From positions 2,356,001 to 2,420,000 of the forward strand of contig JASSKH010000021.1 in NCBI GenBank assembly GCA_031763025.1: DNA of 64,000 nucleotides, written 5' to 3'. A model generated the notes under the pieces. The model worked only from the letters and a program-made list of their open reading frames with translations. It was not told where the DNA came from and made no database searches. A program made the position numbers and the translations under genes. Each line of letters begins with the position of its first letter. The stretch's first letter is position 1. The DNA is from Macrocystis pyrifera. Taxonomy: Eukaryota; Sar; Phaeophyceae; Laminariales; Laminariaceae. This document shows, piece by piece, positions 11,287 to 54,289 of this stretch.

Positions 11287-13193
11287 GCTCAGCGACCATA
11301 GGTAGGGGTCTAGATTTATGTATCAATTTTTCGCGCGAAGCGCGAAAAAAATATAAAGGCGTTTTTCTCGGGAGTGTTCAGCGCAGAACACTTATTAGCC
11401 CCAAGAAAAAATAAGAAACAAGAATGCCGGCCCAGGTTGGATTTCTTATTATTGAAAATGTATTCCACAGATAATAACAGTACAAAGGATCTCGAATTTT
11501 CTTATTGTCGTATAATATCTCTTTTTTACTCCTCGTGTATATAATGTGTAAAAATACCTATCTGTACAGTACAAGTACTCTGTTTCCCTTGTGTTCATCA
11601 TGGTGTCATGACAGAAGAGCAGAAAAACTTTCACAGCGATATAAGTCGATTTCAAGTAATGGTAGGTAGCTCTTCGAGATAAGGTCCGATTGACAAGCGG
11701 TTTTTTACGTTTCAATCTTTGGCACTATTCGGATGAAGTGGTTGGGTGGGTGTTTTTTTGAAGGTAAGGTGTTGTAGAGGCGGTGCGGTCAAAGTAGGCA
11801 ACCTCAAAGATTTAAACGTAATAAGTGCGACATCAGCGACCTACTGACAACTCTATAATATAATGAAAGGATGTCGTGACAAGTAACGACCAAACACGAT
11901 TCACCGAACTCTTGTGTACCGGGATTCTCATTTTATTCGACTCGTTTACAACACAAATCTTGAATTTATCAAAACTCACAGCATTTAACGACACAACGCA
12001 CACAAATGCACCATCTACCGTTTACAGCCATCTGGCCCTCTCCAAGCTTCGCCCTAAGAAACGAACCCTTCAAGCCTGAGCGATGTTAGCCCCCCCCCTG
12101 ACAAAATAATAAAATAATCTCTAGGTAGGTTCAGCGATATTTGCACAAAATCTTTATAACGGGCGTTTTTGGCTATGTAAACGTTTTTCTTGGGCGAAGT
12201 ACACTACAAAACACTTGATAATAGTGAGGAAAAAAAGAAGCAGGAATGCTGGTCTCGCCCGAATTTCTTATTCGGGAAAGTTACGTTCTATACTGACTTC
12301 AGTACAACCGCTGTCAAACTTCTTATTTTCCTGTCATTTACTTTTACAGTGGGCTCCTTTACCTGTGTTCTGGTATATAGAGGGCAAGATTCTGTTGTTT
12401 AACGTCAAAAGTCGACTTCAAGTAATAGTGCATATCCGCGCGAGATAAAATCCGATTGCAAAACGATTTTTCACGTTGGATTCCCTGGTACTTTCCACAT
12501 AGACTGGCAGTGCAGATATATTTGATGCAGATGAAGGGTTGTGGGGGTGTCGTCACAAATACAGGCAACGAAAAACAAGAAAAAAACATTATGTACGACT
12601 GCAGCTATTAATAGCTGCTCTAGAATTTTATCTCGGACGACACAGAACGATCACACGTACATGAGATACTCACCGCAACGTGTCCGAAGGAAGTGGTATC
12701 TCGTAAAATATACCACTATGTTAAACACGGATACATGGAGAGTTGTCTGGTGATATAATGACGAAGTTCACTGCATTTTAGACAACATATACAACGCAGA
12801 TCTACGTCGCCCTCGGCCTTCTCCAAGAAAACATATTGCAATACACGGAAAACGCCGAGACGTTCCTTAACAAGTACCTGGTGGACGATTTCAATCGAAA
12901 AACGTATTTTCAGCAGCAGCCAGGGCTACACTAAACCCTGCACGTTAGTCCATGTTTAACATCAGTGGCAACTAAAGACAATCGCCTCTGCGACCACGAC
13001 AGCCATATTTAAATTCCTCGTACGACCCACGGACCAATGGGAACTTGCAAGGAGGAAACTCAATTTTCCTCTGCGTTCGTTTTCCTTCTCAGGGCGAGGG
13101 TCAGCAGGCACGATACGTCCTTGCTCGTCCAAAAATGGGTCCAGGGTCGATCTGAGACCATCCACCCTTGCGTTGTGCGCATTCCCGGCAACT
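11287..13193. mobile_element. 1.9-kb insertion inside A1, two diverged tandem copies
   Basis: This segment interrupts the A1 repeat and is flanked by TCCGG on both sides (11282-11286 and 13194-13198), consistent with a 5-bp target duplication. Its first 1.6 kb is two diverged units of about 0.8 kb (about 11290-12090 and 12110-12900). Shared blocks include GGCGTTTTTCTCGGG versus CGTTTTTCTTGGGCG, GAATGCCGG versus GAATGCTGG, and GAGATAAGGTCCGATTG versus GAGATAAAATCCGATTG. The remaining 0.3 kb is single copy. I find no coding domain and no TG...CA ends, so its class is unknown. Confidence 0.65.
11329..11352. repeat. Perfect hairpin in the insertion
   Basis: TTTTTCGCGC, a three-base GAA loop, then GCGCGAAAAA: a perfect ten-base-pair stem at the start of the first tandem unit. 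Confidence 0.8.
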
Positions 13194-13198
13194 TCCGG

Positions 13199-13351
13199 AA
13201 TTTCTATTATTTTTCATTCTTACCCCCGTACTAAACATCCCTTGGTATTATATGGGAAACCCTCCGAAACCGTCTCATTCCTTCACTGATTCATCTTTTC
13301 TACCCGTTACCCTCCAAACACCAGGTTGCCCCTACGACAACCTTCCTCTTT
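13199..13351 (-). repeat. DIRS element repeat A1, outer part (5' end of element)
   Basis: Resumes the match to A2 (about 6135-6284), ending TTCCTCTT at the element's 5' outer terminus. The two A1 parts sum to about 326 bp against 324 bp for A2, supporting a clean insertion between them. Confidence 0.9.
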
Positions 13352-13430
13352 AGAACGGGGGTATCACAAACAAGGTGTACGGTTTGTTTAATACCGGTAC
13401 CAGATGTTGTCATTGTGGTTGTTCTCACAT

Positions 13431-13526
13431 TTAACCCTTGTAGGTCTGCAGTCCCATCTTGGAGACAATCCATTCAATTTTCACGTAGCTCTTGCCCAAA
13501 ACGGGACTGATGTACTAAAAGAAGTT
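13431..13526. repeat. TTAA-type MITE (family 2), copy 1
   Basis: An imperfect palindrome of about 95 bp. It begins TTAACCCTTGTAGGTCTGCA, contains GTCCCATCTTGGAGACAA and returns through AAAACGGGACTGATGTACTAAAAG. It lies 80 bp from the DIRS 5' end. Confidence 0.7.
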
Positions 13527-13603
13527 AGTCAGTGGGCACGAGTACAGGTAGTCGACAACAGTTTTCGATTTTCGATGGATGGTCTGCACCAGGTCGCCTG
13601 CAC

Positions 13604-13945
13604 TTTTTTTTCTATTATTATTTTTTTTTTATATCATCACTTTTACTTTCCAGCCCACTCATATGAGGTTTTACCCTCGACGATCTTCTGGACAAGCCGT
13701 GGTCACAGGTGTCGTCCCTTCTCCCCCCCGGTACGTGCCTTTAGTTTTTATCGCGCATAGGGTTCAGCATTCCCATTGCTCGTCGATTTTCATCGAAGGT
13801 ACAGCTAACTCACGCTCTCGCGCTTTCCGCTAATCAATTTTATGCAAGAAAAAATCCCTATGAGCATGCACTCGGTGAGACTCGAACTCACGAAATTGAT
13901 CTTGATAGGCTCGCGGACCACCTACCAAGCCACCGGGGACACCGG
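13604..13945 (-). mobile_element. tRNA-derived SINE, copy 1
   Basis: Minus-strand copy. The 5' head (about 13945-13870) is tRNA-like, with an A-box-like TGGCTTGGTAGG and a B box GGTTCGAGTC-like sequence. The body contains GGAAAGCGCGAGAGCGTGAG and CGGCTTGTCCAGAAGATCGT, and the 3' end is GGAAAGTAAAAGTGATGA plus an A/T-rich tail. Five further copies in the window share the whole unit. Pol III transcription from the internal boxes is inferred. Confidence 0.85.
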
Positions 13946-13980
13946 CTCCACGCGTATAAATACTAAAGGAATTACATACA

Positions 13981-14248: not shown

Positions 14249-17160
14249 TGTGTGTGTTCTTCACATTAAACCGTTCTTCTACTCGTCGACATCCAGCAAG
14301 CCCAGTGTCCGTGCTGATTCTTCACCCTAGGAAGATACGAGCTCTGTGGTCACAGACTACGACACAGAGATAACACACCGTAATGCATTAATAGCCTACG
14401 CAATACCATGCCTTCGCACTAGGTGCGGCCGACACAACATACATACATACGCCAGCAACCAAAATACACCATAAAGAAAGAGAAGCAACGAAAAAACCAA
14501 ACCGAAAAAGAACAAGAAAAAGAAAAAGAAAAAGAAAAAGAAAAGGAGAAGAATCCCAAATAAATAAATAAAATGGGAAGCCAAAGCTCAGACACATACA
14601 TACTTACCCCGAGCATGAGCCAAAAGGGACGTGCAAGGGGAAAGATACGAGAAGGAAAAAGGGGACTATGCATCCCGGTGAACACTTAACTAAGTAAAAA
14701 GAGCAATAGTGAGTGGGCCAAAATACGCTCGTCACCCACCCACTATGTAGTACTTCTTTCATAAGGATAAGAAGGGAAAAAAATCAAAATGCATACCGAA
14801 CGGCCGCAGCAGTTGGCGGTACGAGTAGCAAAGAAACGTCCAACCTATTAGTCGGCCTGGTACCTTGCTACCCTATCTGCGGTCTCTCTGCTACTCTCTT
14901 CTACCGCGGTTTCCCTTCTACTCCTCCTGTTCCCCCCCCTGCCCCTATACACTTGTACGGTGTTCCCTCTACCCCTCCTGCTGTTACCCCTCCCCCCATT
15001 CCCTCTAACACTACCTGCAGCGGATGCACGGCGCTGTCTACTCAGCTTTGCCTCAGCCTCGTGCCACCTGCCCATGAACTGTTCAGCTGCTTCGAGGATT
15101 CCCCGGTACCACTTTCCCGTCTGTTTTGCTGCAGTGGGCCACAGTGCGGTCCCAACTCCAAAGACTAAGGGGGAGTCTTCCGTTGATCCCTCTGAGGCTT
15201 TGAACACTCTAAGGTCCTCAGCAATTGCCCTAGGCCAAGTCTTAGGCTGCCCGCCTGGTTTCGGGCTCCCCCCACCAGCGATCGTCCCGAACATCAACCG
15301 ACTGGGCAATCGCCCCTCGTGTTGCCGCACCACAGCCCCCGCAAAGAAGAGTCGCCGTTTACGGATGGTCGTTTCGATACTTTCGCATCGTGTTATCCTG
15401 AGCGCCTTCGCATACGAGAGGGTGGTGTGGTCGGTGCGTAGTCGGCGCTGGAAACCAATGACTCGCAGAAGGACTTCGTGGTGGGCTGATCGAAGCTTGG
15501 CGAAGTGGTCCGCATTGAGGGTCCACGTCACGCAACCGTACAGCAAGGTCTCAATCACCTCGGCCTTCAGCATCCGGACTTTCAGACTAAGCGGTGCGTT
15601 CGTCCTATCGTACAGTTCCGGACCATACCGTTTGAGGCATGCCCGCATCAGACGGATTCGTCGCTCGATTTCGAAGGAGAGGTCAGCGTTCTCGTGGATA
15701 ATGCCTCCTAGGTACAAAAACTGGGTCGTCTGTTTATACTTTTGGCCTGCAGCTTCGATCGCGAGCGGTGAGGTGGTAAACGTCTGATCCGGTGTTCGTA
15801 GGAGCATCGTCTCTGTCTTCTTCTCGGATACCGTGAGACCTACTGCTTCGAAGACAGTCACGATGACTGTCATCATTCTCCCAAGGCCTTCCGCCGACTT
15901 CGAGACTATTCCTGCATCGTCTGCATACAACATGCCCCACACAGCCCTTTGCACGCATGCCAACGGTTCCTCTTTTCCGACAACCCTGTCCTCTTCGAGA
16001 TGAACCAAATCCCTTACGATGCATTCGTCTTTGCTGAAGCGTACCAGCACGATGTGTATCGCAGCGGCGAAGAACACGTTGAACAGTAACGGCGATAGTA
16101 CGCAGCCTTGCCGCAGTCCCTGGGTTACATTGAACCAGTCCGAGTGTTCACCGTCATCCGCACGCACGCGAGCCCGCATGCCTTCGTGAAAATTGCGAAT
16201 GATTGTGAGCATCTTGGTTGGTACACCAAGGCGTGTGAGTACCTCCCACAACAGTTCTCGGTCGACAGAGTCGTACGCTTTCTGCAAGTCGATAAAGCAC
16301 ATGTACAGGGGGATTTTCTTCTGCCGCCCGAGCTGCTGCAACCGGCGCACGACAAACAGCATATCGACTGTTGACCGTGCGGGGCGGAAGCCGCACTGTT
16401 CTTCAGGGAGTATATGCTCGGTCTCGCAGTAGCTGCTTAGACGGGACGCAACGATTTTCAGCAACACCTTGCCTGCGTGAGCAACAAGCGAAATACCTCT
16501 GTAGTTGTTGCAATCAGTTCTATCCTTCTTTTTATGAAGGGTTTTTATGATCGCATCTTTCCATTGCTGGGGGACTTCTCCCGTTACCCAAACGTTAACA
16601 AGGATACTGTGAAAATACTGCACGAAAGCGGGGTGGTCAAGTTTCAGTACTTCGACCGGGAGACCATCTGGTCCAACGGCTTTCCAGTTTGACATACCCT
16701 TCACTGCTTCCATCATCTCGTCAATGGATGGTTCATTTCCAAGGGATAGTTTCAGCGGTCGTGGTGGCACTAGGTCGATGATCGTGGGGTCAAGTTTCAG
16801 CGATTTCGTGTTCAATAGTTTGTGGTAGTGCCCCGCCCATCTTTCACGAATTCGCGCTTGATCTCGCAACAGCGTGCCATCCTCGTCCATGATTAACTGT
16901 TCACTCCTCGCTTTCGTACCTTGCAACCCTACCGTACTCTTCAGGTGCTTGTAGAACCCTCGTTGATCGGAACTCGTGAGGAATTTCTCGGTTTCAGCGA
17001 GGTACTCTTCAAAATACGCATTGACTCCTGCGGCGACCACTTCCTGCAGATTCGCACAGGCGGATCTCAACTTCTTCCACGCTGTACTATCTCGGGGGTA
17101 GACACGCAGGAGCTGTCTCGCATCCTCCCTCGCTGTCCATGCTACTTTGAAAGCGGCCGC
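14249..17160 (-). mobile_element. LINE (non-LTR retrotransposon), copy 2, 5'-truncated
   Basis: Best LINE copy of the window. The minus strand carries a long uninterrupted RT frame (17160-14848) followed by about 600 bp of 3' untranslated sequence to 14249, ending in TTAATGTGAAGAACACACAC. The 3' part (14249-14876) is almost identical to 23657-24273, differing mainly in the copy number of an AAGAAA run. At the 5' side the frame is cut off at about 17160, next to a damaged MITE, so any N-terminal endonuclease domain is absent. Confidence 0.9.
14848..17070 (-). CDS. LINE reverse transcriptase (5'-truncated ORF)
   Basis: 740 codons without a stop. The frame stays open upstream to about 17160 (reading [17 protein letters not shown]), and codon 1 as listed is TTG, so no true start is present and the protein is N-terminally incomplete. 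RT motifs in order are [18 protein letters not shown] (178-195), [14 protein letters not shown] (226-239), [13 protein letters not shown] (259-271), [14 protein letters not shown] (317-330) and the YADD active site (382-385). Then come TPDQTF and FLYLGGIIH. The C-terminal 100 residues are basic and Gly/Arg-rich. It copies element RNA at a nicked target. All catalytic residues visible are intact, so loss of activity would come from the missing 5' part. The clade cannot be fixed from this much sequence. Confidence 0.9.
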
Positions 17161-17180
17161 CGTTAGATTTTTATCTATAT

Positions 17181-17278
17181 AACATAGGTCCTAGTAACTA
17201 TGGTATACATAAAAACCTATATTTTTACCTATTTTTACTAACAAAATTTGGTCCCGTTAACTATGGACCCCCGCAATA
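17181..17278 (+). repeat. TA-type MITE (family 1), copy 1, 5'-damaged
   Basis: The interior (TATACATAAAAACCTATA, TTACCTATTTTTACTAACAA) and right terminus (GTTAACTATGGACCCCCGCAA) are typical. The left terminus is rearranged to CATAGGTCCTAGTAACTATG and lacks the GGGGG end. It abuts the 5' truncation point of LINE copy 2. Confidence 0.85.
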
Positions 17279-17482: not shown

Positions 17483-17485
17483 CTC

Positions 17486-17578: not shown

Positions 17579-17579
17579 T

Positions 17580-17848: not shown

Positions 17849-18017
17849 GATTCCTTGTCAAAGATATTGATAGGCCAGCGGCTCCCCTGGATGCTGCCCG
17901 GGTCGACAGGACAATTCTAAATAAATAATCATTCTGCGCACTTATACTATATAACCCGAACAAGGGATATTGATATGATGTTGCAACATGTTGAAACCTT
18001 TTCTATATATACATATA

Positions 18018-18350
18018 TGTCCCCGGTGGCTTGGTGGGTGGTCCGCGTGCCTGTCAAGATCAATTTCGTGGGTTCAAGTCTCACCGAGTGCATGCTTAAG
18101 GGACTTTTTCTTGCATAAAAAATTGATTAGCGGAAAGCGCGAGAGCGTGAGTTAGCTACATTCGATGAAAATCGACGAGCAGTGGGAATGCTGAACCCTA
18201 TGCGCGCCAAAAAATAAAGGCACGTACCGGGGGGGAGAAGGGACGACACCTGTGACCACGGCTTGTCCAGAAGATCGTCGAGGGTAAAACCTCCTACGAG
18301 TGGGCTGGAAAGTAGAAGTGATGAAAAAATAAATAAATAAAAATAAAATA
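18018..18350 (+). mobile_element. tRNA-derived SINE, copy 2
   Basis: Full-length unit: tRNA-like head with TGGCTTGGTGGG (A-box-like) and GGGTTCAAGTCTCACC (B-box region), body with GGAAAGCGCGAGAGCGTGAG, and 3' tail GGAAAGTAGAAGTGATGA followed by (AAAT)n. The tail runs directly into LINE sequence. Confidence 0.88.
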
Positions 18351-18700
18351 TATATAACAACAAACCATCGTGCCCCCCGTGCAGGGGATCTGGCAGACAC
18401 TTGAAAAGAACGAGCTGGAAGAAAAGGAAAAACAAGAAAACACCACTATTAATAGTCGTCGTCAACAAGACTAAGAACCAAGGGAAAATAACGCGCAAAC
18501 CAAACAAAGCACAAAGCATTCCCTCCAGGTAGCGGCAGCAGTTTATGGTACGAGTAGCGCAGCCAGGGTCTCCCTGCTGGTCCGCCTGGTACCTTGCTGC
18601 CACCCTGTCTGCCACCTTCGTCCAGTGTTCGTCAACTATGCCCGGCCCCTTGGCGTCAGACAATACGAAACAAACAAGCAAACCACATGAAGTAGAAGAA
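18351..18700 (-). mobile_element. LINE 3' untranslated fragment, minus strand
   Basis: Reverse complement of about 19450-19800 of the next LINE copy. Matching blocks are GGCAGACACTTGAAAAGAAC, CCAGGTAGCGGCAGCAGTTT and GTTCGTCAACTATGCCCGGC. Both ends of the LINE are missing, so this is an internal remnant left after nested insertions. Confidence 0.8.
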
Positions 18701-20111: not shown

Positions 20112-20161
20112 GTGGTATATACTACTAATACAAAGGATATTACAAAGGAACACAGGAGAGC

Positions 20162-20508
20162 CGGCGTCCCCGGTGGCTTGGTAGGTGGTCCGCGTGCCTG
20201 TCAAGATCAATTTCGTGGGTTTGAGTCTCACCGAGTGCATGCTCGTAGGGGCTGTTTCTTGCATTAAAGAGATTGATTAGCGGAAAGCGCGAGAGCGTGA
20301 GTTAGCTACATTCGATGACAATCGCCGAGCAGTGGGAATGCTGAACCCGATGCGCGATAAAAAATAAAGACACGTACCGGGGGGGAGAAGGGAAGACACC
20401 TGTGACCATATGGCTTGTCCAGAAGGTCGTCGAGGGTAACACCTCTTACGAATTAGGCTGGAAAGTGAAAGTGATGAGTAAAAAAAAAAAAAAAAAAACA
20501 AAAAAATA
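20162..20508 (+). mobile_element. tRNA-derived SINE, copy 3
   Basis: The head carries GGCGTCCCCGGTGGCTTGGT and GGGTTTGAGTCTCACC (B box decayed at one position). The body is conserved and the tail is a long poly-A (about 18 A). The A-rich tail merges into the left end of a family-1 MITE, whose own terminal GGGGG is absent. Confidence 0.88.
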
Positions 20509-21253: not shown

Positions 21254-21368
21254 TATTACGGGGGACCATAGATAGTAAATAGGACCAAATATTCTTTGTA
21301 AAGATACCTAAATATATATAAGTTTTTGTGTGTACCGTAGGTCCTATTTAATATGGTCCCCCGTAATA
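21254..21368 (-). repeat. TA-type MITE (family 1), copy 3
   Basis: A-type termini on both sides (GGGGGACCATAG...CTATTTAATATGGTCCCCC). Flanked by TA duplicates in the context C-TA...TA-G. An extra GATA lies in the left terminus. Confidence 0.92.
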
Positions 21369-22624: not shown

Positions 22625-22733
22625 TATTACGGGGGTCCATAGTTAATAGGACCTATGGTATACATAAACACCTATATATTTATGTATTTTTACTAACAAA
22701 ATTTGGTCCCATTAACTATGGACCCCCGTAATA
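22625..22733 (+). repeat. TA-type MITE (family 1), copy 4
   Basis: T-type termini (GGGGGTCCATAGTTAATAGG and CCATTAACTATGGACCCCC), full-length interior, TA duplicates on both sides. Followed by ATTAATTAATAG. Confidence 0.95.
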
Positions 22734-23656
22734 TTAATTAATAGTCTGTCGTTTACTTGGGAGAAGGAGTTTTGTGTGTCCGCTCAGGTTGTAGGTTTGT
22801 GATCTCTTGATGTCAGCAAAACAAAGCGAAAACACTGGCATATATCGGCGTAGTAGGTAGGCTCATCATGCTCTGAATGGCGACACATATATATTTTTTT
22901 GCCGATAGCAGGTGCAGCACGGAATAGTATGCTGCAAACAATGCACAACAAGTAAATATAACCGGACAACAGCAGCACTTGGTTGTCAGTGAGCCAGACC
23001 TTTCGACATTTACTTACTGCTTAGTTAATGCTCGCACCAACTTTCCTCGGGTTATTTGCGATACAGACAGACAAGTACCTGGTAGTCGATAAGTAGGTGG
23101 GATATTTCGTCTCCCCGACTTCAGAAATATATAAATATTCTGCTTTTCTGTTTGTTGATCACAAGCGCAACACCCCACACAACCGTGCGTTCATATTCAC
23201 AAGCGAAAATGCACCACACAACCGTACCTTCATAAAATCATATCACGTAGTTTCAATATTTCAAATTCGAATATATTTCAAGGTCATACCTTTACGACTT
23301 TCGTTTGCTATTAATACGTACACCACTACTTTCGTAATTCTACCTTCCGGTACTACGTACAGCAATAATACTTGAACTCGTACAGCAGTAGTAGTTCGAC
23401 CTTCCGGTACTCGTGGCGTCAGATGTTTTATGTCTTGGCTCCGATCCGCAATGAATAACGTCTGCATTAAAAAAAAGTGTCAATAGTATAATTATGCCCC
23501 ATTTAGATTTTTTTGTTCCTTTCCAGAAAAATGTTGAAGCTTTTGTCTTGTGTGACTTGTACACTCGTGGGCATACTCTTCTTTTCTGCTCGCATATACT
23601 GCTGGAAATGTTGTTGTTGTTGTTGTTGTTGTTCTCACATTGCCACAATACAATGT
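22734..23656. other. No gene recognised; (GTT)n near end
   Basis: No supported gene. TATTAATA occurs at 23309-23316. A (GTT)n microsatellite at about 23608-23632 lies just before the 3' end of the following minus-strand LINE copy, suggesting the LINE primed at or generated this run. Confidence 0.45.
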
Positions 23657-24448: not shown

Positions 24449-25138
24449 ATGCGGTACGCTGTACAAGTCGCCATAGAAACCGAGAAGACCGCATACTACC
24501 CAGGAAGGAATAGGAAAAGGATGGAAAATAAAACAACTCCACGTCGAAAAATCGAAAGCGAAGTCTTAAAAATAAAAAATAAAAAAAGGGAAGCAAAACA
24601 ATCAATTCGAGTAAGAAAGCAAGAAAGCAAGCTGAAGAAAGGAAAAGGATGCACAAGAGAGTGCGCAGATTATCGCAGATCTACTATTAATACTCATGTT
24701 AATACGCGAGAAGTGTACCAACACGTAGCCTTTTATTCCACCTCACTGCTGTTTCTGTCTATTTCTGATTTAGGACAGCAGTGCAGAAATTATACCATTA
24801 TGGAAACGGGGAAATATACTGGAATATTATTATTAGAATGTTCCGGTCTGATGAGAGTTTTTTGTGGTCGAATAGGTAAAAACAATACCCCTGTTTTTAT
24901 CGAGATAAAGCTCAAGTGGGTGTGGACGGGGTCGGAGTTACGTAGGGTTAAGGCCATATCGTGCCTAAAGGTATTTTTTTTTATGATACCTGGAATTAAT
25001 ACTTGGGGATGTTTCGGAACGTCACTACTTAAAACACTGGAGCTACTCGCGGGCCGATGCTGCTTCTTAAGCAGTAGATGGTGTGCTTGTATTATTTTGG
25101 CTACGAATAATAATGCGATAACAACGACAACCCAATAG
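24449..25138 (+). CDS. Unassigned lysine-rich open reading frame
   Basis: 229 codons from ATG at 24449 without a stop, the longest open frame outside the transposons. The first 70 residues are very basic and Lys/Arg/Glu-rich (KRMENKTTPRRK, KIKNKKREAKQSIRVRKQES), and could form a charged helix. The rest is mixed, with a hydrophobic stretch LKVFFFMIPGINTW and an NNNAITTTTQ end. I recognise no family. The A-rich composition explains part of the openness. It may equally be a chance frame. No neighbour suggests a function. Confidence 0.2.
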   Translation: MRYAVQVAIETEKTAYYPGRNRKRMENKTTPRRKIESEVLKIKNKKREAKQSIRVRKQESKLKKGKGCTRECADYRRSTINTHVNTREVYQHVAFYSTSLLFLSISDLGQQCRNYTIMETGKYTGILLLECSGLMRVFCGRIGKNNTPVFIEIKLKWVWTGSELRRVKAISCLKVFFFMIPGINTWGCFGTSLLKTLELLAGRCCFLSSRWCACIILATNNNAITTTTQ

Positions 25139-25542: not shown

Positions 25543-25860
25543 ACTTTCATCACTTTTACTTTCCAGCCCACTCGTAGGAGGTTTTACCCTCGACGATCTT
25601 CTGGACAAGCCGTGGTCACAGGTGTCGTCCCTTCTCCCCCCCGGTACGTGCCTTTATTTTTTGTCGCGCACAGGGGTCAGCATTCCCACTGCTCGTCATT
25701 TTCATCGAATGTAGCTAACTCACGCTCTCGCGCTTTCCGCTTATCAATTTTTTATGCAAGAAAAAGTCCCTACGATCATGCACTCGGTGAGATTTGAACC
25801 CACGAAATTGATCTTGATAGGCACGCGGACCACCTACCAAGCCATCGGGGACGCCGGCTG
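25543..25860 (-). mobile_element. tRNA-derived SINE, copy 4
   Basis: Minus-strand full unit. The 3' end (TCATCACTTTTACTTTCC on the plus strand) lies at 25548. The tRNA-like head ends at about 25860 with GGCGTCCCCGATGGCTTGGT on the sense strand. The A/T tail is nearly absent. Confidence 0.88.
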
Positions 25861-26962
25861 CGTAGGACTAATGCCGAGTCACATGTGACGTCAAAATTTA
25901 TTTTATCCCATTCGGGAACTCAGTCATTGCGAGGCAACGACTTTTTTTGGAATGTCTTACCGCACTCCACCGCACTCCAACCAACCCGTGTTTTGGATGA
26001 TTATAGACCCTGACATGTGGCACGCGTTCTATGAACCCCTGCAATGCCTTTTTCGACGTTTTTTTTTATTCTTCACGGAAAAGTTGGATATGACTTCAGA
26101 TCCAAATATATATACTCGTACAAAAAACATTTTTATGTCAGGGATTGCCAGTGGCTCCCATTAATATAACTACCTGTGGTATGTGCCAAAAAACATTCCT
26201 CCGAAAGACGTGATATATATCGGAATCTGAAGGGATTTCATACGATTGTATTTGACCAGCGCGTATTTGTTGTTAAATTGGCCTCAAATATTGGCCCCTA
26301 CGAGTTTATATTTGTTAAGTGATCAAAACAGCAGCGTTGTGAGGTCGAGGTTTTCGTCGCGAAGCTCATCATCTTTGCAGGCTGGCTGTGTGTGACACTA
26401 TCAATATCAAAATAGTTATACTAGTGATACTTCGATCGGCCGTACTACGGGCTTTTTATGATCTCATGCAATATGTACATTCTGTATATATATCAGGAAG
26501 ACAAGATCTAAAGCTGCAGAATCTAAGGCGTGTGTGTGGGTCTGTATAAAAAAAAAAATTGAACATAAATAATGATAAGTTTCCAAGGTTGCACGTAGCT
26601 TGCCACGAGTGGGGAATTTGTAGTATTTATTCATACTATTAATAGAAAGCGTGGTACCCGAGTGCCTATCAATCGTGCATACTTCACTCCTACTACTGCC
26701 GTTTTCACCTGGTTTTATATAGCCATCGACATATGCCTGCAGCAGTCAGTAGAATTCCATCTACTCGTACAGATGCGTTTTAATCTGCTTGTTGAAGACC
26801 CCTTCCTCTGCGTCGAGGCCTCCGGCTCATAGCCAGCAGTGTTGCCTTGCTTTGGTGTTACGCCAAAATTTCCGACATCGATCATTTTGAAATTTGAAAT
26901 TGACATCGAAATATTAAATACGAACTATCGCCTCGGATCGGAGAATTTGAGGTACGTGTATA
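25861..26962. other. No gene recognised
   Basis: AT-rich, with no supported gene. TATTAATA occurs at 26637-26644 in the context C-TATTAATA-G. Confidence 0.4.
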
Positions 26963-27071
26963 TATTACGGGGGACCATAGTAAGTAGGACCTACGGCATA
27001 AACAACAACCTATATATTTCGTTATTTTGACGAACAATATTTGGTCCTATTTACTATCGTCGTCCGTAATA
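26963..27071 (+). repeat. TA-type MITE (family 1), copy 5
   Basis: A-type left terminus GGGGGACCATAGTAAGTAGG. The right terminus has diverged (ACTATCGTCGTCCGTAA), so the palindrome is imperfect. TA flanks are present. Confidence 0.88.
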
Positions 27072-27780: not shown

Positions 27781-27889
27781 TATTACGGGGGACCATAGTA
27801 AATAGGACCAAATAATGTTAGTAAAAATAGGTAAATATATAGGTTTTTATGTACACCATAGGTCCTATTTACTATGGTCCCCCGTAATA
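27781..27889 (-). repeat. TA-type MITE (family 1), copy 7
   Basis: Near-perfect A-type copy: GGGGGACCATAGTAAATAGG and its exact inverse CCTATTTACTATGGTCCCCC, with TA on both flanks. It is a good reference for the A-type consensus. Confidence 0.96.
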
Positions 27890-28191
27890 TTAATATTCTA
27901 AAATGTAATCGAAACGGTCGTCCTCAGTCCTATTTCGGGACAGAGTGGTGCCGAAGCGAAGACTTGGGCCGCTCTTACTCCATTGTTCTCAGTATTTTGC
28001 CCCAATTCATGGGTATCGACGTTGAGGGGTCACGGTAATCGTGTGGTTTGTATCTAGCAGAGGCCGAGGGCGGGGGGCGTTTGTGTCCGCGTTTGGTCCT
28101 CTTGGTTCTTTGTTTCAGTCTTTTTTTTGCGGTGTCTGCCGGACGGAAGTGATTCCGGCAGCACCACTCCAGACAAACCACTATTTCGGGA

Positions 28192-28290
28192 GACCATAGT
28201 ATATAGGACCTTCGGTACGTACGAAAACCAATATATTTCCAGATTTTTTCGTGGAATATTTGGTCCTATTTACTATGGTCCCCAGTAATA
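28192..28290 (+). repeat. TA-type MITE (family 1), copy 8
   Basis: Shorter, diverged A-type copy (TTTCGGGAGACCATAGTATA at left, CTATGGTCCCCAGTAA at right), flanked by TA. Confidence 0.88.
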
Positions 28291-29870
28291 GTTTTTTTTA
28301 TTTGGCCGTTGAACGGGGTATCAACCTACTGACTGTTGGACCCCTGGAAATAAGAATTACCTGACCTATTTACCTGACCTATGTCTCTCACATATCCTAT
28401 CTATATATATGTCAGGCACGAAGTATGCGATGTAGTACCGGTACTATTAATAGTTTAGACGGCTTGGAGCTTTTCAGGAGGACGGGCTAACTTGTGACAA
28501 CAGTCACCTACAGACAGAATATTGTTGATATCGTATAGCATTCGCAGTTCTTACATCAACAACGAGACACAGATAACGTCGAATGCAATCTCCCCTACGA
28601 AACAACCCTGAGGACTCTCTGTTCAGCTTTTTCTGTCCCCGCGGGCTTGACAATCCCTGAATACAAAAATACCTGCTGGCACGTACATGTTTTGGGACTC
28701 TCCGGTCACATTCGCTCGGTCTGCCGCCGTCAACCAGTCAGTGCTATAGTTGCATCGCCGCGAACAAGTACAGTAGTTTGACACCTCCGTCCGGATGCGC
28801 TACCAGGCTGTATTATTGGTTTTAAGCGCGGACTACGTCTTCTGTCGTTCCTACAGTTGGTTCGGATGGAGGCACCGAGTATCGAGTATGCTGGAATTGC
28901 CGGCTGCTCCGCTTGGCCTTTGGCCTCTCCCTCTTACACGAAGTACAAAATGATCCTACATCGAGTCCTGGCGCGCATGGAGTGCAATCCTCCTCTAGCG
29001 CACATACGAACTATTATACTTTGCGAGTGCAACATAGCAGAGCCCGTGAGCTCTCTGCGTGGTCAAGTTGGTATGTTGGTCGAGTCAAATAAGATGGAGT
29101 GTGCTATTAGAAATAGGATTCCGAGTCGATTGCGACAAGTCATCGTAGTTACTGCTAACTGTGTGGTGTTGTTTCGTTTGAAATTGTTTGGAAGGGGCAC
29201 TACTGTACTGTTGCGACCAGTCGATTGCCCCTGCTGTACTCCGCACTTCGGTATACTACACCACGCGACAAACGCATGACAAAGCAACGCACCAACCACG
29301 AGCGCACAGTCGTGACGACCCGCTTTCGTGCTCTCCTTCGCATCGCGATCTGTTTTACGATAGGGTTGGCGCTTTGTTTGCCTTATCCTCCTCGTGGTAC
29401 TTCACAGGGGGAAATTGACGATTAAATATGACGACTACAGCAACGACCGCTGCGTATCATGATAAACAATCAGGTGTCCGAGTTTCAACGCAAGCAGTCG
29501 TACGGTCGGCACGGGCGCAGCATGATAATCCTATCCTACCCTTGCTTACTGGGCGTTGACGCTGCTCGTAAGCAGTTGATGTCATCACCAATGTAGTCGT
29601 TGTTTTATTGTTATAGTAGTCGCTATCTTCAACTCCTCAAGGGGTGTGAAGAGGCAACATTTCGGACTGAGGAACTACCCAACATCTATCTTTTGTTTCA
29701 ACAAGACATTTCGTTGCAGACCCACTGCCGTTGGGCCATCAATAGGGCCCATCTTAACGGGGAACGCTAAAATTTCGTCACTTGGAAATAATGTTTTCAT
29801 GTTCAATGAATTTTTATTTGATTTTGAAAAAACAAACTAACGTGTTTGTGTCCTATCGGGAAACGGCGTA
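28291..29870. other. No gene recognised
   Basis: The open frame 28857-29279 (about 140 codons) has no motif I know. TATTAATA is at 28445-28452 in the C...G context. Nothing else is assignable. Confidence 0.35.
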
Positions 29871-30034: not shown

Positions 30035-30341
30035 ACCGGCGTCCCCGGTGGCTTGGTAGGTAGTCCGCGAGCCTATCAAGATCAATTTCGTGAGTTCGAG
30101 TCTCACCGAGTGCATGCTCATAGGGACTTTTTCTTGCATAAAATTGATCAGCGGAAAGCGCGAGAGCGTGAGTTAGCTGTACATTCGATGAAAATCGACG
30201 AGCAGTGGGAATGCTGAACCCTATGCGCGATAAAAAATAAAGGCACGTACCGGGGGGGAGAAGGGACGACACCTGTGACCACGGCTTGTCCAGAAGATCG
30301 TCGAGGGTAAAACCTCCTACGAGTGGACTGGAAAGTAAAAG
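30035..30341 (+). mobile_element. tRNA-derived SINE, copy 5
   Basis: The head carries TGGCTTGGTAGGTAGTCCGC and GAGTTCGAGTCTCACC. The body is well conserved. It ends GGAAAGTAAAAGTGCAG with no A-rich tail, running straight into the right half of the family-2 MITE. Confidence 0.88.
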
Positions 30342-30361
30342 TGCAGTGCTAAAAGGGTTAT
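30342..30361. repeat. TTAA-type MITE (family 2), copy 2, right half
   Basis: GCAGTGCTAAAAGGGTTATA, the expected mirror of the left half at 29871-29900. Confidence 0.55.
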
Positions 30362-31787
30362 AAATGTCAAACAAAAAAAAAAGATGGGAATAACCTGGAC
30401 TAACGCACCGCGTCACACAACGCCCAGTCGACAAATAGCGATAAGTGTAGACTAGACAGAGCGAAGGTTTGCGTTGTCGCGTGCGCGCCGCCGCCGGCCT
30501 CTTTTTCTTTTTGGTGGCGTAGGACAGGAAGCCATCACTCTCGGATTGTCTTGGGTGGGCGGAGAGAGCCCTCAAGCGCCACGCGCGGAACAGCAACGGT
30601 GATGCAGCTATCATGGTCTCGAGCGTATCATCTCTTTTTTTGTTCGTTTGCTCCGTTTTCGTGATGGTTGGCCGATCGAGCAGGCCGAAAAAATCGGCTT
30701 GCGGCCGCCATGATTCGCCACAGCCGGGGTACGATGCGTTTTGTTGGTCTGTGGGCGTCGGCGTGGCTATTGATCGGGTCGTCTCTCGTTGAGATTCGCG
30801 TTTTATCGCCTCGATCGTGGTCACCGAAGCGGCCAAAAATCACCCCTGACTCCACCGGGGGTGTTGACCCACCACGAACATGCTACATCAAGGCTCATCA
30901 ACTCCCCAATTTCAACTTGAAATTCAAGAAATCGCACGAAGAAGTCTCAAGAAAGACTTTTCACTCAATGGTAATTTTTTAATTTTCATTGAGAATGCCT
31001 GCTTGGTGATTCACTCTTCGGCCAATCAGATGCAAATTAAATTAGAACAAAAAAAAAATGATATTGAAAAAGATAAACGTCCACGATAAGATGTGCCCTC
31101 AGGAGATTGCTGATGGGGTCAAGTATGCTATTGTTTTCTGAAGAAAGTAGGTTTTCCGTGTTGTATGGAGATCCTCGGGCGAGGACCCTCAGACGAATGC
31201 AAGTGCACCGCCACCCTATACAATATCATAGCTTATTGCGTCGAACACGGAGTACGCCGCGGTTTTCTTAATATTGCACCTGTCCGCTGCGAAGCACTTG
31301 CTGCCTTTTCTTACGTGCTACCTATTATACCGACCATATTGTGGTGCTGGTATTGCCCTCTCAAAGGACATCGGTGCCCCAAACTTGGGCGAATACGCGC
31401 CAGGGCCACAGGTGTATATTGAGGTACACCAGCGCGAATCGCGAGTCTCAATACCACCGTGTACAACATCCACCACGAAATATATGCGTTGAAGCCACAA
31501 AGCCTTCCGGACGGCCAACCGCGAAACGTCCCCGTCTGCTTTGGTCGTGACGTCTCTCGCTTTCAGAGAGTTGCGACGTCAATCGAAGACTCTCTTCGTT
31601 CCCTAACCGGACCGGCTGTCATCCTTGCTGGTTAGATCGTTGGGTGTTCGAATCCTGCTAATACCATCTGTCTGCTTCGGTCGATCAACTCTGACGTCAA
31701 TGAAAAACTAAATCCCATACCTGGTACTATTTTAGAACTATTTTTATTTCCGAAAAGTGGGCGGCCATACCGTTATTTTTTTAGCAC
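30362..31787. other. No gene recognised
   Basis: Bases 30470-30870 are GC-richer and open on both strands. A plus frame (MRFVGLWASAWLLIGSSLVE, from about 30734) resembles a hydrophobic leader but has no continuation I can follow. A separate small frame 30880-31089 (SLKKDFSLNGNFLIFIENAC) is of unknown nature. Confidence 0.3.
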
Positions 31788-31896
31788 TATTACGGGGGAC
31801 CATAGTAAACAGGACCTATGGTACACACAAGAACCTTTATATTTACCTATTTTTACCAACAATGCTTGGTTTTATTTACTATGGTCCCCCGTAATG
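31788..31896 (+). repeat. TA-type MITE (family 1), copy 10
   Basis: A-type termini, full-length, C-TA on the left. On the right the duplicated TA has become TG (GTAATGG). Confidence 0.92.
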
Positions 31897-39751: not shown

Positions 39752-39956
39752 CTTCACTTGAGGAGCTCCATACCTCACCCGAAAACTGACTTCAGCAAAA
39801 ATCAAATTGCATGCCGATGATTAACCTCATGGCCCAAGTATACATAAAAGTCGATTTTCGAAACAAGATTTTGGCATTTCGACGATTTTTCCCCGTCATT
39901 CAGAAAACATTTTAGCGGAAAATATGTGCTATTAATACCTCTATTTCAGACTGCGT
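39752..39956 (+). repeat. R3 repeat, copy with TATTAATA in place of a MITE
   Basis: Matches the reverse complement of 63430-63612 at roughly 75-80% by eye, and a further stretch of 63300-63318. Shared blocks include GGAGCTCCATACCTCACCCG, ACTGACTTCAGC, CCATGNCCCAAGTATAC and CCCGTCATTCAG. Where the other copy has a complete family-1 MITE between GTGC and CCTCTAT, this copy has TATTAATA (39930-39937). Confidence 0.8.
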
Positions 39957-42008: not shown

Positions 42009-42121
42009 TATTACGGGGGGACCATAGTTAATAGGACCTACATTTCCATATAATTACTAGCAATATTTCCATATAATTACTAGCAATATTTGGTCCTATT
42101 TACTATGCCCCCCCCGTAATA
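42009..42121 (+). repeat. TA-type MITE (family 1), copy 11, internal duplication
   Basis: The termini are intact (GGGGGGACCATAGTTAATAG and TTTACTATGCCCCCCCGTAA). The normal interior is replaced by two tandem copies of ATTTCCATATAATTACTAGC plus AAT. TA flanks are present. Confidence 0.92.
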
Positions 42122-47836: not shown

Positions 47837-47950
47837 TATTACAGGGGAACACAGCAAACAGGACCTACGGTACACACAAAAACCTTTCTACTTACCTATT
47901 TTACTAACAACATATGGTCCTATTTACTCTATAATGGTCCCCCCGTAATA
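47837..47950 (+). repeat. TA-type MITE (family 1), copy 13
   Basis: Diverged left end (ACAGGGGAACACAGCAAACA). The right end contains an extra CTATAATG before GTCCCCCCGTAA. TA flanks are present. Confidence 0.88.
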
Positions 47951-48126: not shown

Positions 48127-48235
48127 TATCACGGGGGTCCATAGTTAATAGGACCTATGGTATACATAAAAACCTATATATTTATATATTTTTACTACCA
48201 ATATCAGATCGTGTTTACTATGGTCCCCCGTGCTA
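48127..48235 (+). repeat. TA-type MITE (family 1), copy 14, hybrid termini
   Basis: The left end is T-type (GGGGGTCCATAGTTAATAGG). The right end is A-type (GTTTACTATGGTCCCCCGTG). The two ends therefore come from different subfamilies. Confidence 0.9.
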
Positions 48236-48957: not shown

Positions 48958-49075
48958 TATTACGGGGGACCATACATAGTAAACAGGACCGAACATTTTT
49001 AGTAAAATTTCCTAAATACAGAGATAGGTTTTTTATGTATGCCAAAGGTCCTGTTAACTATGGACCCCCGAAATA
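48958..49075 (-). repeat. TA-type MITE (family 1), copy 15, hybrid termini
   Basis: Left end A-type with an extra ATAC (GGGGGACCATACATAGTAAA). Right end T-type (CTGTTAACTATGGACCCCCG). Confidence 0.9.
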
Positions 49076-49520: not shown

Positions 49521-49642
49521 TATTACGGGGGACCATAGTGAATAGGACCAAATATTGTTAGTGAAAACAGGTACATAAAATAATATGTACGTAGATTTTT
49601 GTTTTGATTAGTAGGTCCTATTTACAATGTTCCCCCGTAATA
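49521..49642 (-). repeat. TA-type MITE (family 1), copy 16
   Basis: A-type termini with TA flanks. It is longer than usual because of inserted AT-rich sequence (ACATAAAATAATATGTACGT) in the middle. Confidence 0.93.
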
Positions 49643-50496: not shown

Positions 50497-50606
50497 TATT
50501 ACGGGGGTCCATAGTGAACAGGACCTATGGTGTACATAAAAACCTATATATTTGCCTATTTTTACTAACAAAAATTCGTCCCGTTAACTATGGACTCCCG
50601 TAAATA
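50497..50606 (+). repeat. TA-type MITE (family 1), copy 17
   Basis: T-type termini with a one-base change at the right (GGACTCCCGTAAATA). TA flanks are present. Confidence 0.93.
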
Positions 50607-52163
50607 GTAGTAGTAGAATCTTCCAAATAAACTCCATCCACCACTGCCCTTGCGTACAAAAACACACCCCTCGGAATGTGTGCGGGATAAGTTTTGTAAT
50701 AATATATAGTGTTATTAATAATAGTGCAAAACAATCATACCTTGGTATGTAAATATTAATAAAAGATGTATAGAAACTCTTGTCGGTATACGTATAGGGA
50801 TGCATACAATTAAGGACTTACTTGATGACTTGAGCGAGTGTGGACCAATTGTTTGGGAATAGAGGGAAACGATTTGGATATATAGATAAATATGTTGTTG
50901 TTGTTGTTGTTGTTGTTGTTGTACTCGTGTAATAATATTGTCAGTCGACCGCTTCTCTTGAGGCGCAAAGCAGCGCACTTTTGGTACTGGGCACAATTTC
51001 GAAGAGGTGCCGTGCGATGTATAATATATATATAAATAAAAAACTATTAATGTTACAAGTATAACATATATATGTGAGATCAAGGATTTCGTCGAAACTC
51101 ATATCTATTTGCAAACTGCTGTCTGTGTGTAATGCTTCCATCGCACGTACCACGGGTTTTACGTGACCTCATTCATGCAGCACATACATACATTCCATAT
51201 GTACGAGAGGAGGACGAAATCTGCGACTGACTGCAGAATTCGGGAGGGGGTATGCGTCCATAGTTAGAAAGACGCAAAACCCAATTTGGGCATGTACTCG
51301 TAGTCCATGTTCGTTGTGGATGGTTGGGTATTATTAGTTGCTTGGTGCACGGCAAACACCTATCTGTAGGAGAGAGCCTGGTAAAATCCCTCCTCCTGTA
51401 TTAATAGTCGGTGGTGTTAGGTCTCTAATTAATGTGTCTATGTCACACCCACCACCGGCGAGGCTACAGCACAGCACAACAACAGTGACAGACGGTGGTT
51501 GTCCATTCGTCTGAAGTGCAATAAATATGTGCCCGACTGCGCCTTTTTTTTACGAAGGCGTTGCCTCTCCCGAAAGTACTTACTGTTGTTACAATCGAAA
51601 CGTATTGCGTTGAGGTATTTATAGCGTTGATATGCTACGCAAACTCCGTCATGAATACATTATTTCGACCACCCGTACCCCATTCATACTACAGCAGTAA
51701 TAAAATTATTGTTCCATACATAGCCATCTGACAATTTGTATTATAATAATAGCGCTTATTATTCCAATAACACGTCCGTCCACAATAAAAGACAACACAG
51801 CAGTACCTCGTGGGGGTGGTGCTTCATTCTCTGAGCTCTTCACATGAGGAGCTCATCATCTCGCCGGGAACACGCCTTTCGAAGGCTCTTGTTCGCGCAA
51901 TTTGATTGACCGATCTGTCAACGTGTCCCCAAACTCCAGGGGTAACAGCAGCCTCTGTTCTGAGATTGCAACGGGAGCCATGGGCTGAAATTGTAAGACA
52001 TAGCAGTTGTTCACAGTCGCGCAAATGCTTGATGTATTCTGATTGGCTGATTGGTATGATGTAGCTGCAAATTATCCAGGGGGCATATGCGGTGGGTTTG
52101 GTGCTTTGTTTCCCGGATGGGTTGAACGGGGAAGAGGGATGAGAGGCTTGACCTCACTACCAC
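50607..52163. other. No gene recognised; microsatellite and TATTAATA octamers
   Basis: A (GTT)n microsatellite is at about 50893-50922. TATTAATA occurs at 50713-50720, 50754-50761 and 51399-51406. The sequence is AT-rich and no gene is supported. Confidence 0.4.
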
Positions 52164-52274
52164 TATTACGGGGGTCCATAGTTAACGGGACCAAATTTTG
52201 TTAGTAAAAATAGGCAAATATATATAGGTTTTTATGTACACCATAGGTCCTGTTAACTATGGACCCCCGTAATA
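52164..52274 (-). repeat. TA-type MITE (family 1), copy 18
   Basis: Near-perfect T-type copy with the full palindromic terminus and the flanking context C-TA...TA-G. Confidence 0.96.
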
Positions 52275-52318
52275 GTACAAAAGTCTCGTCTTTTCTGGTA
52301 CCACAATGACTATACAAC

Positions 52319-52427
52319 TATTACGGGGGTCCATAGTTAACGGGACCAAATTTTGTTAGTAAAAGTAGGCAAATATATAGGTTTTTATCTACACCATAGG
52401 TCCTGTTAACTATGTACCCCCGTAATA
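52319..52427 (-). repeat. TA-type MITE (family 1), copy 19
   Basis: Differs from copy 18 by only a few bases (by eye: one interior substitution, a shorter TATA run, one change near CTACACC and GTACCCCC at the right end). It has the same orientation and lies 45 bp away. It is either a local duplication or two insertions of one source copy. Confidence 0.95.
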
Positions 52428-52445
52428 CAAACAATAATTAAGACA

Positions 52446-52482
52446 TATTATTTACCTATTTTTAATAACAATATTTGGTCCG
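52446..52482 (+). repeat. TA-type MITE fragment
   Basis: TATTATTTACCTATTTTTAA followed by TAACAATATTTGGTCCG matches the MITE interior only. Both termini are missing. It lies 20 bp beyond copy 19. Confidence 0.7.
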
Positions 52483-54289
52483 ACCTGAATACTTGACTCA
52501 TTAATACCTGCGGTACAACACTTCTGAGTCCCATTTATATCGTTTTGAGGCGATACCATCGTGTGCCTCGCACGCCGGTCGGTTCACGGCCCTATCAAGA
52601 TCCGGTCCCGTAACTTTCTTCGTCCGACCCAAACGGCCGTTTTCTACGCTCTCGCGACAGCTCAGCTCACCGGCGCAAAGCTGCATGCGACAAATATCTT
52701 CTTCGCTCGCAGATATACAGCCCAGGCGTCGAGCGTCGATGATGTCGCACGGATCGTAACCACCGTCACGCCCTCTCCCGAACCAAACTACTGCTGCAAT
52801 GCAGACAGAAAACAATCGCACGGAACGGCGGGACTGTGGCGCTGGTCAGGTAACCCCTTTCTTGATGAAAGATGCGTGATGGCTTCTTCTGTGCTCCGGC
52901 AACACTGAGTACGGCGGTCTTTTCGCTCAATAAGCCGAGCCAGATCGTGGATTTATACGCACCCGTACTTGGTTCGATGCAGCGAACACCGGATCGGATT
53001 CTGCTGCGCTTCTGGATTTTCACCCCCAATATTCCATACTGCTGTGCGCCTTTTCATGTGGCGTTCCCAATCTGGATGGATGCAGCTTTCAAAGCCGAAA
53101 TCAGCCTTTTAATAAGATGTTTCGAGACGAAATCTACAGGTTTGGCGTATAGTGTATAATCTACGACTATACAAAGTAGGTCAACACGCTCTCCTTGCCC
53201 CAAAATCGGGTGTGCGTAAAGAGGCTGAAATCCGGTTAACTTCACGCCGCCCCCCGCGATACGACAGTTGATGCTCGACACGATAAACGCTTCCCATGAA
53301 ACACTCAAAAGTAAACTTTTGTGCACGCGTCTTCTAAAACCGTAAAACTAATACATTAGTTTCTCATCAAGAACGACGAGTTAAATTCACACTGTGAGCG
53401 TCTTATTGTTGCCTTGAAAAAAAAATAGCACGTATAGGCTAGCAGCACGCAGATGCAGCAGGCACAATGCCCCGTCACTTGCCCAGCTACTGGGCGGTGT
53501 GAAAACAAACGTGCACGCAGCTGGGCGGCACTGCCTACGTTCGAGCGAAATCTAGCAACCGATTTGAAACGGACGTCATACCGCGCCACTGCCGTGTAGA
53601 CCCAATAACAAGAAAAGCTCAACAAGAACACGCGGCTCGCATTTTTCTGTTTCGCTGATAAGATTCAGATCAAGAGTTCGTTGTGCTCAGCGGCGACGAT
53701 AACACCGAACGCATACTAGATTTATATCATCCCACGCTCAAGATTGGGGGTCGTGACCGGTCCAACTATTAATAACGTATATCATTGAATGTCGGCCAAG
53801 GATGGTGTCATGATAAGTTTTTGAAGACTTGGTCAGAATATACGATTTTCGTTGTCGGGCCCATACTCCAGGAATCGACGAAATCCGACGCGTCGGCAGC
53901 GGGGGGACGCTGGCGATGGGAAACATGTTTCTACTGTTGTTGCTGTCAATCGTGGGGGTGGCGAGGACGCCCACACGGGCACAATTTAGCGGAGATGCCG
54001 GTGTGATCTACCAGTGGCAGCAGTAGAGTCCGCTGGTCTAGCTAGTTGTTTTTGTTTTTCTCAATTATATAGACAAACATTGTTCTGATTGATTGTAGTT
54101 GTATTAATAGCTGTTGGTTCCGTTCCTAGGGACAGACGAAGCGGTTTCTGTGCTGTACTGCTGTCGGCTGATCGCGTTGCCAAACCGTGGCCACAGGGAA
54201 GGGGCCTTTCGCCTTGATTTCAGCGTAAGATGTACCCTGTTCAATGCGTCCAGTTTAGTCAGCACTCCCAACGCCTGTCGAGAATATTC
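52483..54289. other. Possible exon-bearing region, no complete gene
   Basis: GC content rises between 52550 and 52900, where both strands are open (plus frame with AQASSVDDVARIVTTVTPSPEP; minus frame 52821-52501 with CDIIDARRLGCISASEEDIC, starting GTG). A donor-like CAGGTAAC lies at 52848. No family is recognised on either strand. TATTAATA is at 53767-53774 and 54102-54109. Confidence 0.3.
53916..54000 (+). CDS. Orphan first exon with signal-peptide-like leader
   Basis: ATG at 53916 opens MGNMFLLLLLSIVGVARTPT followed by RAQFSGDA: a short N-region, an LLLLLSIVGVA hydrophobic core and a plausible cleavage at T-R-A or A-Q. A GTGTGATC donor-like site follows at 54001 (phase 1). Reading on without splicing stops after 36 residues. 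I cannot find the next exon, so the product is unknown. The pattern matches the LNR gene's first exon (leader, then a phase 1 donor). The frame could also be coincidental. Confidence 0.3.

Follow-up and report, generated by a model that had tools for sequence, protein, structure and literature searches.

Evidence that an abundant octamer of the giant kelp genome is mostly the excision scar of a short TA-inserting MITE family

Why does one octamer, TATTAATA, recur along a stretch of kelp DNA? The window analysed here is the 64,000-nucleotide stretch C202:2356001-2420000 of the genome of Macrocystis pyrifera (giant kelp; 537,376,219 bases, 223 contigs). It contains copies of a miniature inverted-repeat transposable element (MITE) of about 105 bp, which begins with TTACGGGGG and ends with CCCCCGTAA. 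An initial annotation had listed 12 octamers and read them as footprints left by this MITE, a family that would thus move by cut-and-paste. The analysis reported here supports that reading: with a probability of about 0.95, most genomic copies of TATTAATA are excision scars of the MITE family. Cut-and-paste movement at TA, with typically two bases kept from each end, is indicated by the flanks of the octamer, by a repeat site found in three states and by a locus with and without the MITE.

Results

Abundance of the octamer

All 12 octamers of the initial annotation were present, and a thirteenth was found at 27888 (Table 1). In 100 dinucleotide-preserving shuffles of the window, TATTAATA occurred 0.98 times on average and at most four times, so that none attained 13. 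Further counts were made in a 264-kb sample consisting of the window and 20 fetched pieces (L005-L024), 14 of which lie on C202, so that the sample is not random among contigs. It contained 73 octamers, compared with 1.94 and 5.9 expected under order-2 and order-3 Markov models, respectively. In the whole genome, where the reversed word served as chance control, 94,130 copies were counted against 7,522 (a 12.5-fold excess). The three most over-represented 8-mers of the sample (at least 20 copies, order-3 model) were ATTAATAG, CTATTAAT and TATTAATA, the first two being C/G-flanked shifts of the octamer.

Chance, base composition or a functional AT-rich motif could account for a minority of sites, such as those at 50713 and 50754, which lie in AT-rich sequence. 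Provided that the reversed word measures chance correctly, about 8% of the genomic octamers are accidental. For most sites this explanation is already contradicted by the excess over the reversed word, by the shuffles and by the target-like flanks described below, and as a general account its probability is close to nil.

The MITE family

The MITE ends are terminal inverted repeats, as in Tc1/mariner elements, and the element is short, non-coding and located at TA, as in Stowaway-type MITEs. Its commonest length between the TAs was 105 bp (18 of 38 paired-end rows, L001-L004 counted in). The 35 aligned copies diverged by 4-30% from their consensus. Part of the family appears to be young, since for nine of these copies the closest other copy is 93-99% identical and some matches to the window copies elsewhere in the genome are 97-99% identical. 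Perfect ten-base ends (TATTACGGGG) numbered 35,586 + 35,742 = 71,328 genome-wide (reversed pattern, 559), so that at most 35,664 elements are perfect at both ends, a count that leaves out elements with mutated ends. Some MITEs directly adjoin an octamer or TATTAATTAATA (window 22625-22744 and 27781-27895; L009:20), as would result from reinsertion into, or next to, an earlier scar.

Target preference

Counting back from TATTAATA, position -1 is C in 57% of octamer ends, position -2 is A in 51% and position -3 is T in 58%. Before the MITE end TATTACGG, the corresponding values are 56%, 51% and 44%. A flank matrix trained on 47 distinct MITE-end flanks gave the 73 octamers of the sample a score of +0.55 (standard error 0.19), compared with -1.15 for 1,330 other TANNNNTA sites and -1.47 for all TA. 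The words TAC(A/T)GTA and TACC(A/T)GGTA scored -0.55 and -1.40. Single-substitution relatives of the octamer lay in between (TATTAGTA/TACTAATA, +0.13; TATTGATA/TATCAATA, -0.33), and the C/G flank bias is partly kept in such neighbours (TATCAATA/TATTGATA, 0.44, background 0.21), as decayed scars should show. The octamers thus have the target preference of the MITE, which most of the other tested TA-x-TA words lack. The form C-TATTAATA-G (CTATTAATAG), which the initial annotation called frequent, occurred at 20 of the 73 sample sites (both strands, 40 against 0.17 expected), and C and G flanks were found together at 4 of the 13 window octamers; it is therefore a strong preference and no rule.

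One dominant footprint

Words made of two TAs enclosing 0-6 bases of each MITE end were counted in all combinations in the sample, a matrix that catches clean footprints only and misses excisions with deletions or filler. TATTAATA was found at 73 sites (146 on both strands against 3.9 expected), with a C/G flank fraction of 0.57. The next combinations with raised flank fractions were TATTACTA/TAGTAATA (14 against 4.4; 0.39) and TATTTAATA/TATTAAATA (8 against 1.4; 0.38). TATTTA/TAAATA was twofold enriched (238 against 119) and had flanks at background (0.20). A three-base-overhang footprint, TATTATA/TATAATA, was rejected: it was enriched (67 against 29), but its flank fraction was 0.22 and its flank-matrix score -1.32. 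One footprint dominates among the recognisable scars. Two bases from each end, one plus three, and three plus one all give the identical string TATTAATA; the first is favoured because of its symmetry.

The MITE being a near-palindrome, its deletion through a hairpin during replication or repair, with no transposase involved, is plausible in principle. Such deletions would be expected to have variable end lengths, whereas here one product dominates, the other combinations being far less frequent; we regard this origin of the octamer as very improbable.

A repeat site found empty, filled and scarred

The octamer at L013:8392 is part of a repeat that we take, from its sequence, to be a short interspersed nuclear element (SINE): it has an A-rich tail and tRNA-like box A/B segments. 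All comparisons of copies, here and below, are between paralogues within a single genome. Of eight aligned empty copies, seven read CCTC(C/A/T)-TA and one had TG. Empty (CCTCC-TA-CGAG), filled (CCTCC-TA[MITE]TA-CGAG) and scarred (CCTCC-TATTAATA-CGAG) copies were all found, and the three states therefore concern one homologous base pair.

The filled pattern AAACCTCCTATTACGG, in which the fixed left flank AAACCTCC is followed by TATTACGG, has 29 genome copies, and the scarred pattern AAACCTCCTATTAATA (AAACCTCC-TATTAATA) has 128; the reversed control gave 0 for both. Twenty of the 29 filled places were fetched. In ten, judged by eye, the MITE lay within both SINE flanks, the right TA being intact in eight and CA in two; the target duplication is thus 2 bp, filled copies gaining a second TA only. 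The other ten had at most one recognisable SINE flank or a partial right flank (L045), or lay elsewhere. Among 20 scarred places fetched from 100 listed, 16 were in the SINE, L072 probably so, and three were not. Two of the 20 (L063 and L074) carried the double scar TATTAATATTAATA, as would be expected when a favourable target serves a second time. The flanks of the fetched octamer-bearing copies differ, so that these are different SINE insertions, and their scars may each be an independent event. Five octamer places with the AAACCTCC left flank lie 16-28 kb apart in C197:3491349-3589840, apparently an array of segmental duplications, and duplication may inflate the SINE-flank counts.

A gap pattern over the SINE TA matched 69 copies that carry additional bases, and its reversed control matched none. 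Thirty-nine had the form TA-x-TA; TATTAATA was the commonest such class (six copies), followed by TACCAGGTA, TACCTGGTA, TACTA and TATA (three each).

Relatives of octamer and MITE sites

For 76 octamer sites, relatives were sought with the two flanks joined by TA, and at five sites some passed the filter. The 6 bp are absent from the relatives of three, L013:8392 (eight, six shown), L010:7971 (five) and L018:8717 (two), the 13 shown having TA in 11 cases and TG in two; the remaining two sites are L009:5863 and L009:7703, which are discussed below. L007:8039, with one relative, was one further site of the first kind. A MITE-free relative with an ancestral octamer, the outcome which would have spoken against excision, was seen neither at these four informative sites nor at the SINE site. 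Thirty-seven MITE sites were queried likewise and three had relatives; for the MITE at L012:743, four of six had TA. Finally, 351 distinct contexts with insertions of 3-12 bases included 21 of the form TA-x-TA, among which TATTAATA was the commonest (three), followed by TACAGTA, TACATA, TACTA and TAATA (two each).

On sequence alone, a filled site TATT-ACGG...CCGT-AATA would fit a non-duplicating insertion into an existing TATTAATA equally well. The octamer would then be the preferred empty target of the MITE, and the matching flank preferences of octamers and MITEs agree with this. The relatives with plain TA (seven of the eight empty SINE copies and those of L012:743), however, already contradict it, as do the four octamer sites with relatives lacking the 6 bp, and none of the shown relatives of queried MITE sites has the octamer. 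We therefore rejected the octamer as empty target site, an idea which is now extremely improbable.

No clear empty-site relative was found for any single octamer of the window. The claim of scars is strong at the level of the family; each window octamer by itself is a candidate scar. The site at 18447, which the initial annotation considered its weakest, is ambiguous in its ancestry, as a paralogue has TATTATTA.

A locus with the MITE and with the octamer

One filled place outside the SINE (L053) matched two octamer places (L059 and L068), which was confirmed with longer stretches (L076-L078). L076 (C209) contains an intact MITE with both TAs, TA[TTACGGGGG..CCCCCGTAA]TA, whereas L077 (C134) and L078 (C199) have exactly TATTAATA at its position. 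Compared with the other two, L076 is 90-91% identical in its left flank (622-670 bp) and in its right flank (644 bp). L077 and L078 are 99.9% identical and were counted as one event. One insertion followed by one excision would be the simplest history of this locus. The comparison of filled and octamer-bearing sites proposed with the initial annotation thus found its case among paralogues.

L009:26 and L009:5288 were rejected as a MITE/scar pair when the left flank (L025) failed to match. The duplicates L002 and L003 (98.5% identical) hold identical MITE and octamer and are uninformative, and no long duplication for comparison was found among 145 matches to an 8-kb window query, which were mainly MITE.

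The octamers might also be scars of another TA-inserting family, with ends TTAA or similar and the same target preference. The octamers outnumber the perfect MITE ends (94,130 and 71,328), and among 10-kb pieces the density of octamers does not follow that of MITEs (L008 has eight octamers and zero TTACGGGG/CCCCGTAA), both of which would fit such a family. Against it, TTACGG is the only recurrent TTA-starting family among TA-flanked inverted repeats of the sample, the flank logo fits the TTACGG MITE better than other TA-x-TA words do, and the paired locus holds a TTACGG MITE at the exact place. Another source family is accordingly unlikely, at some few chances in a hundred.

Other features of the window

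Three further scar-like word classes were found. TACC(A/T)GGTA has 121,279 copies genome-wide against 2,421 of the reversed word, with the centre base A in 32, T in 30, C in 8 and G in 1 of the copies in the 264-kb sample. Two sites (L009:3726 and L018:8558) have relatives with plain TA, and the word also occurs at the SINE TA. It looks like a second, commoner scar, in which a 5-base overhang would have a mismatched centre, and the 264-kb sample showed no abundant element that could be its parent. TAC(A/T)GTA is about threefold enriched (119 against 41 expected in 264 kb); insertions of it were seen within MITE copies (L013:3057) and, in one case, at the SINE TA. TACTCGTA/TACGAGTA (51 against 9.2 expected in 264 kb; once at the SINE TA) is possibly a further scar class. 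The tRNA-like SINE copies of the window are useful as empty-site references, and a long interspersed nuclear element (LINE) is also present (Table 1).

Table 1. Features of the 64,000-nucleotide window (positions within the window)
Feature	Position	Strand	Remark
Octamer TATTAATA	12606..12613		flanks C..G
Octamer TATTAATA	18447..18454		flanks C..G; paralogue 19853-19473 has TATTATTA
Octamer TATTAATA	23309..23316		
Octamer TATTAATA	24685..24692		
Octamer TATTAATA	26637..26644		flanks C..G
Octamer TATTAATA	27888..27895		absent from earlier list; first TA shared with right target TA of MITE 27781-27889; MITE beside or inserted into scar
Octamer TATTAATA	28445..28452		flanks C..G
Octamer TATTAATA	39930..39937		
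Octamer TATTAATA	50713..50720		AT-rich flanks; weak, may be chance
Octamer TATTAATA	50754..50761		AT-rich flanks; weak, may be chance
Octamer TATTAATA	51399..51406		
Octamer TATTAATA	53767..53774		
Octamer TATTAATA	54102..54109		
MITE	21254..21368	-	intact TTACGGGGG, both TA
MITE	22625..22733	+	GGGGGTCC-type end; right side continues into TATTAATTAATA
MITE	26963..27071	+	
MITE	27781..27889	-	nearest copy to sample consensus (4% divergent)
MITE	28182..28290	+	ends mutated
MITE	31788..31896	+	
MITE	42009..42121	+	23-bp tandem duplication inside
MITE	47837..47950	+	
MITE	48127..48235	+	
MITE	48958..49075	-	
MITE	49521..49642	-	
MITE	50497..50605	+	
MITE	52164..52274	-	99% identity with 63319 copy (recent)
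MITE	52319..52427	-	97% identity with 52164 copy
MITE	54290..54407	+	
MITE	55068..55176	+	
MITE	58834..58944	+	
MITE	59440..59548	+	left target TA mutated
MITE	60893..61001	+	
MITE	63319..63427	+	recent
TACC(A/T)GGTA	18743, 20984, 21018, 21025, 22323, 23076, 31718, 43834, 54629		
TAC(A/T)GTA	664, 11565, 28769, 29201, 42934, 43145, 43934, 48920, 50102, 50490, 55014		
TACTCGTA/TACGAGTA	10828, 14820, 18549, 19255, 19595, 21078, 24217, 26113, 26762, 51295		
tRNA-like SINE family	13604-13956, 18014-18324, 20161-20481, 25547-25857, 30035-30377, 56943-57255		about 320 bp; box A/B-like 5' part, A-rich tail
LINE	14848-17190	-	780-aa open frame with reverse transcriptase domain (RVT_1, E 1.1e-34); related copies 3738-4529

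Discussion

The TA duplication, the scar sequence, the locus with filled and with scarred copies, the common target preference and the dominant footprint are direct observations. The cut positions, the transposase and the joining pathway are inferred. The MITE would insert at TA, preferably in the context TAC-TA-GTA, duplicating the TA, and a transposase acting in trans would later cut it out. Presumably, the cut would fall at the exact border on the strand carrying the 3' end of the element and two bases further in on the opposite strand, so that each chromosome end has a TT 3' overhang. If both overhangs are then kept in tandem by host end-joining, TA-TT-AA-TA would result.

Several observations weigh against excision scars of this MITE as the general explanation, in addition to the discordant densities noted above. 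Some octamers are due to chance, the reversed word itself having 7,522 copies. The paired locus could in principle represent two independent insertions at the same TA. The commonest of all 69 longer SINE variants is TACGAGTGA (seven copies), which has its change further right and is not TA-x-TA. L009:5863 and L009:7703 are two copies of one inverted duplication whose relative in L018 is a mutated form of octamer length, with no TA state, so that this octamer is older than the duplication or is no scar. The MITE at L013:3042 has 11 relatives, and all six shown have TC instead of the expected TA; the sole relative of the MITE at L005:8419 has CA. Moreover, no transposase with TTACGG ends was found: PF13358 (DDE_3) gave 0 matches in a six-frame search that scored three candidates and did not handle introns. 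PF03184 (DDE_1) gave 39 matches, and none of the ten loci fetched (1.5 kb on each side for four, about 2.5 kb for six) has TTACGG ends enclosing the gene.

Three DDE_1 transposase genes (L080, L081 and L082, on C162, C32 and C194) are about 98% identical and lie inside a longer repeated unit, located on two small contigs and near the C194 end; L082 also has tandem repeats of about 160 bp.

In nematodes, the Tc1 scar holds two bases from each end. The Tc1/mariner-like footprint suggested by the initial annotation, with a few terminal bases between two TAs, agrees with the footprint matrix, the SINE scars and the paired locus. Like elements of the IS630-Tc1-mariner group (Tc1, ISY100), the kelp MITE duplicates TA, has inverted-repeat ends and leaves a few end bases between the TAs. 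For ISY100, which is related to Tc1/mariner, transposase cleavage falls exactly at the 3' ends of the element and two bases inside its 5' ends (PMC2170065); a cut of this type with both overhangs joined untrimmed would therefore produce TA-TT-AA-TA. Unlike in these systems, no transposase was linked to the kelp MITE among the loci fetched and its scars number in the tens of thousands, and TTACGGGGG matches none of the end sequences compared.

Stowaway MITEs of Triticeae are short, non-autonomous and located at TA, the described copies being palindromic, and their footprints hold 1-4 end bases between the TAs (PMC1925063). The kelp MITE resembles them in being short, non-autonomous, at TA and in its footprint between TAs, but its ends are TTACGGGGG and not CTCCCTC, the end consensus given for rice Mariner (DTT) elements (PMC4423477, Table 1). 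In rice, with all superfamilies pooled, just two target copies were left in 8 of 94 excisions, the others showing deletions and/or filler (PMC4423477), whereas in kelp one 4-base footprint dominates among the recognisable scars. In the brown alga Ectocarpus, Mariner-Tc1 elements (TcMar-N1/TcMar-2_Ec32) are mostly non-autonomous, with 11,912 copies over all families (PMC12477816). TcMar-N1 has 217 bp compared with about 105 bp for the kelp MITE; the words footprint, excision and MITE do not occur in the main text of that paper. The 3-bp TAA/TTA duplication of PIF/Harbinger (Tourist) elements was not found at the SINE site, where the target gained is TA.

The piggyBac elements duplicate TTAA and excise precisely. 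The filled kelp copies have no TTAA flanks, and scarred sites are 6 bp longer than the TA-empty site. TAC(A/T)GTA is the footprint that we take to be of the Sleeping Beauty type, a scar with an odd-length overhang and a mismatched centre. It shares with the MITE scar the TA-x-TA principle, while the latter is even, with two plus two bases. Strings of TAC(A/T)GTA occur in PMC4378557 and PMC3432063.

Among the matches listed from the open-access literature, neither a report of excision scars in kelp or brown algae, nor TATTAATA as a footprint, nor any description of uniform readable scars at such density was found. The scale and uniformity of the scars are surprising: octamers exceed perfect MITE ends genome-wide, and 128 scarred against 29 filled patterns follow the AAACCTCC left flank. 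Tentatively, and with somewhat less than even odds, kelp may join the ends left by TA-elements so uniformly that every family is marked by a constant word of its own. More than 200,000 scars (TATTAATA plus TACCWGGTA minus the reversed counts) would then form a ledger of transposition that includes lost families, and an end-joining route, of the host or recruited by the transposase, would protect 3' overhangs rather than trim them as reported for rice.

Excisions are usually hard to count, as footprints vary and decay. Here a single exact word, together with its target-like flanks and with SINE references, makes them countable and mappable over a 537-Mb genome. The rates of MITE departure and arrival, double-strand-break repair in brown algae and the genes that have lost an element thereby become testable. 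That an octamer is strongly over-represented need not mean that it is a regulatory motif, since it can also be a scar, which calls for caution when such words are interpreted.

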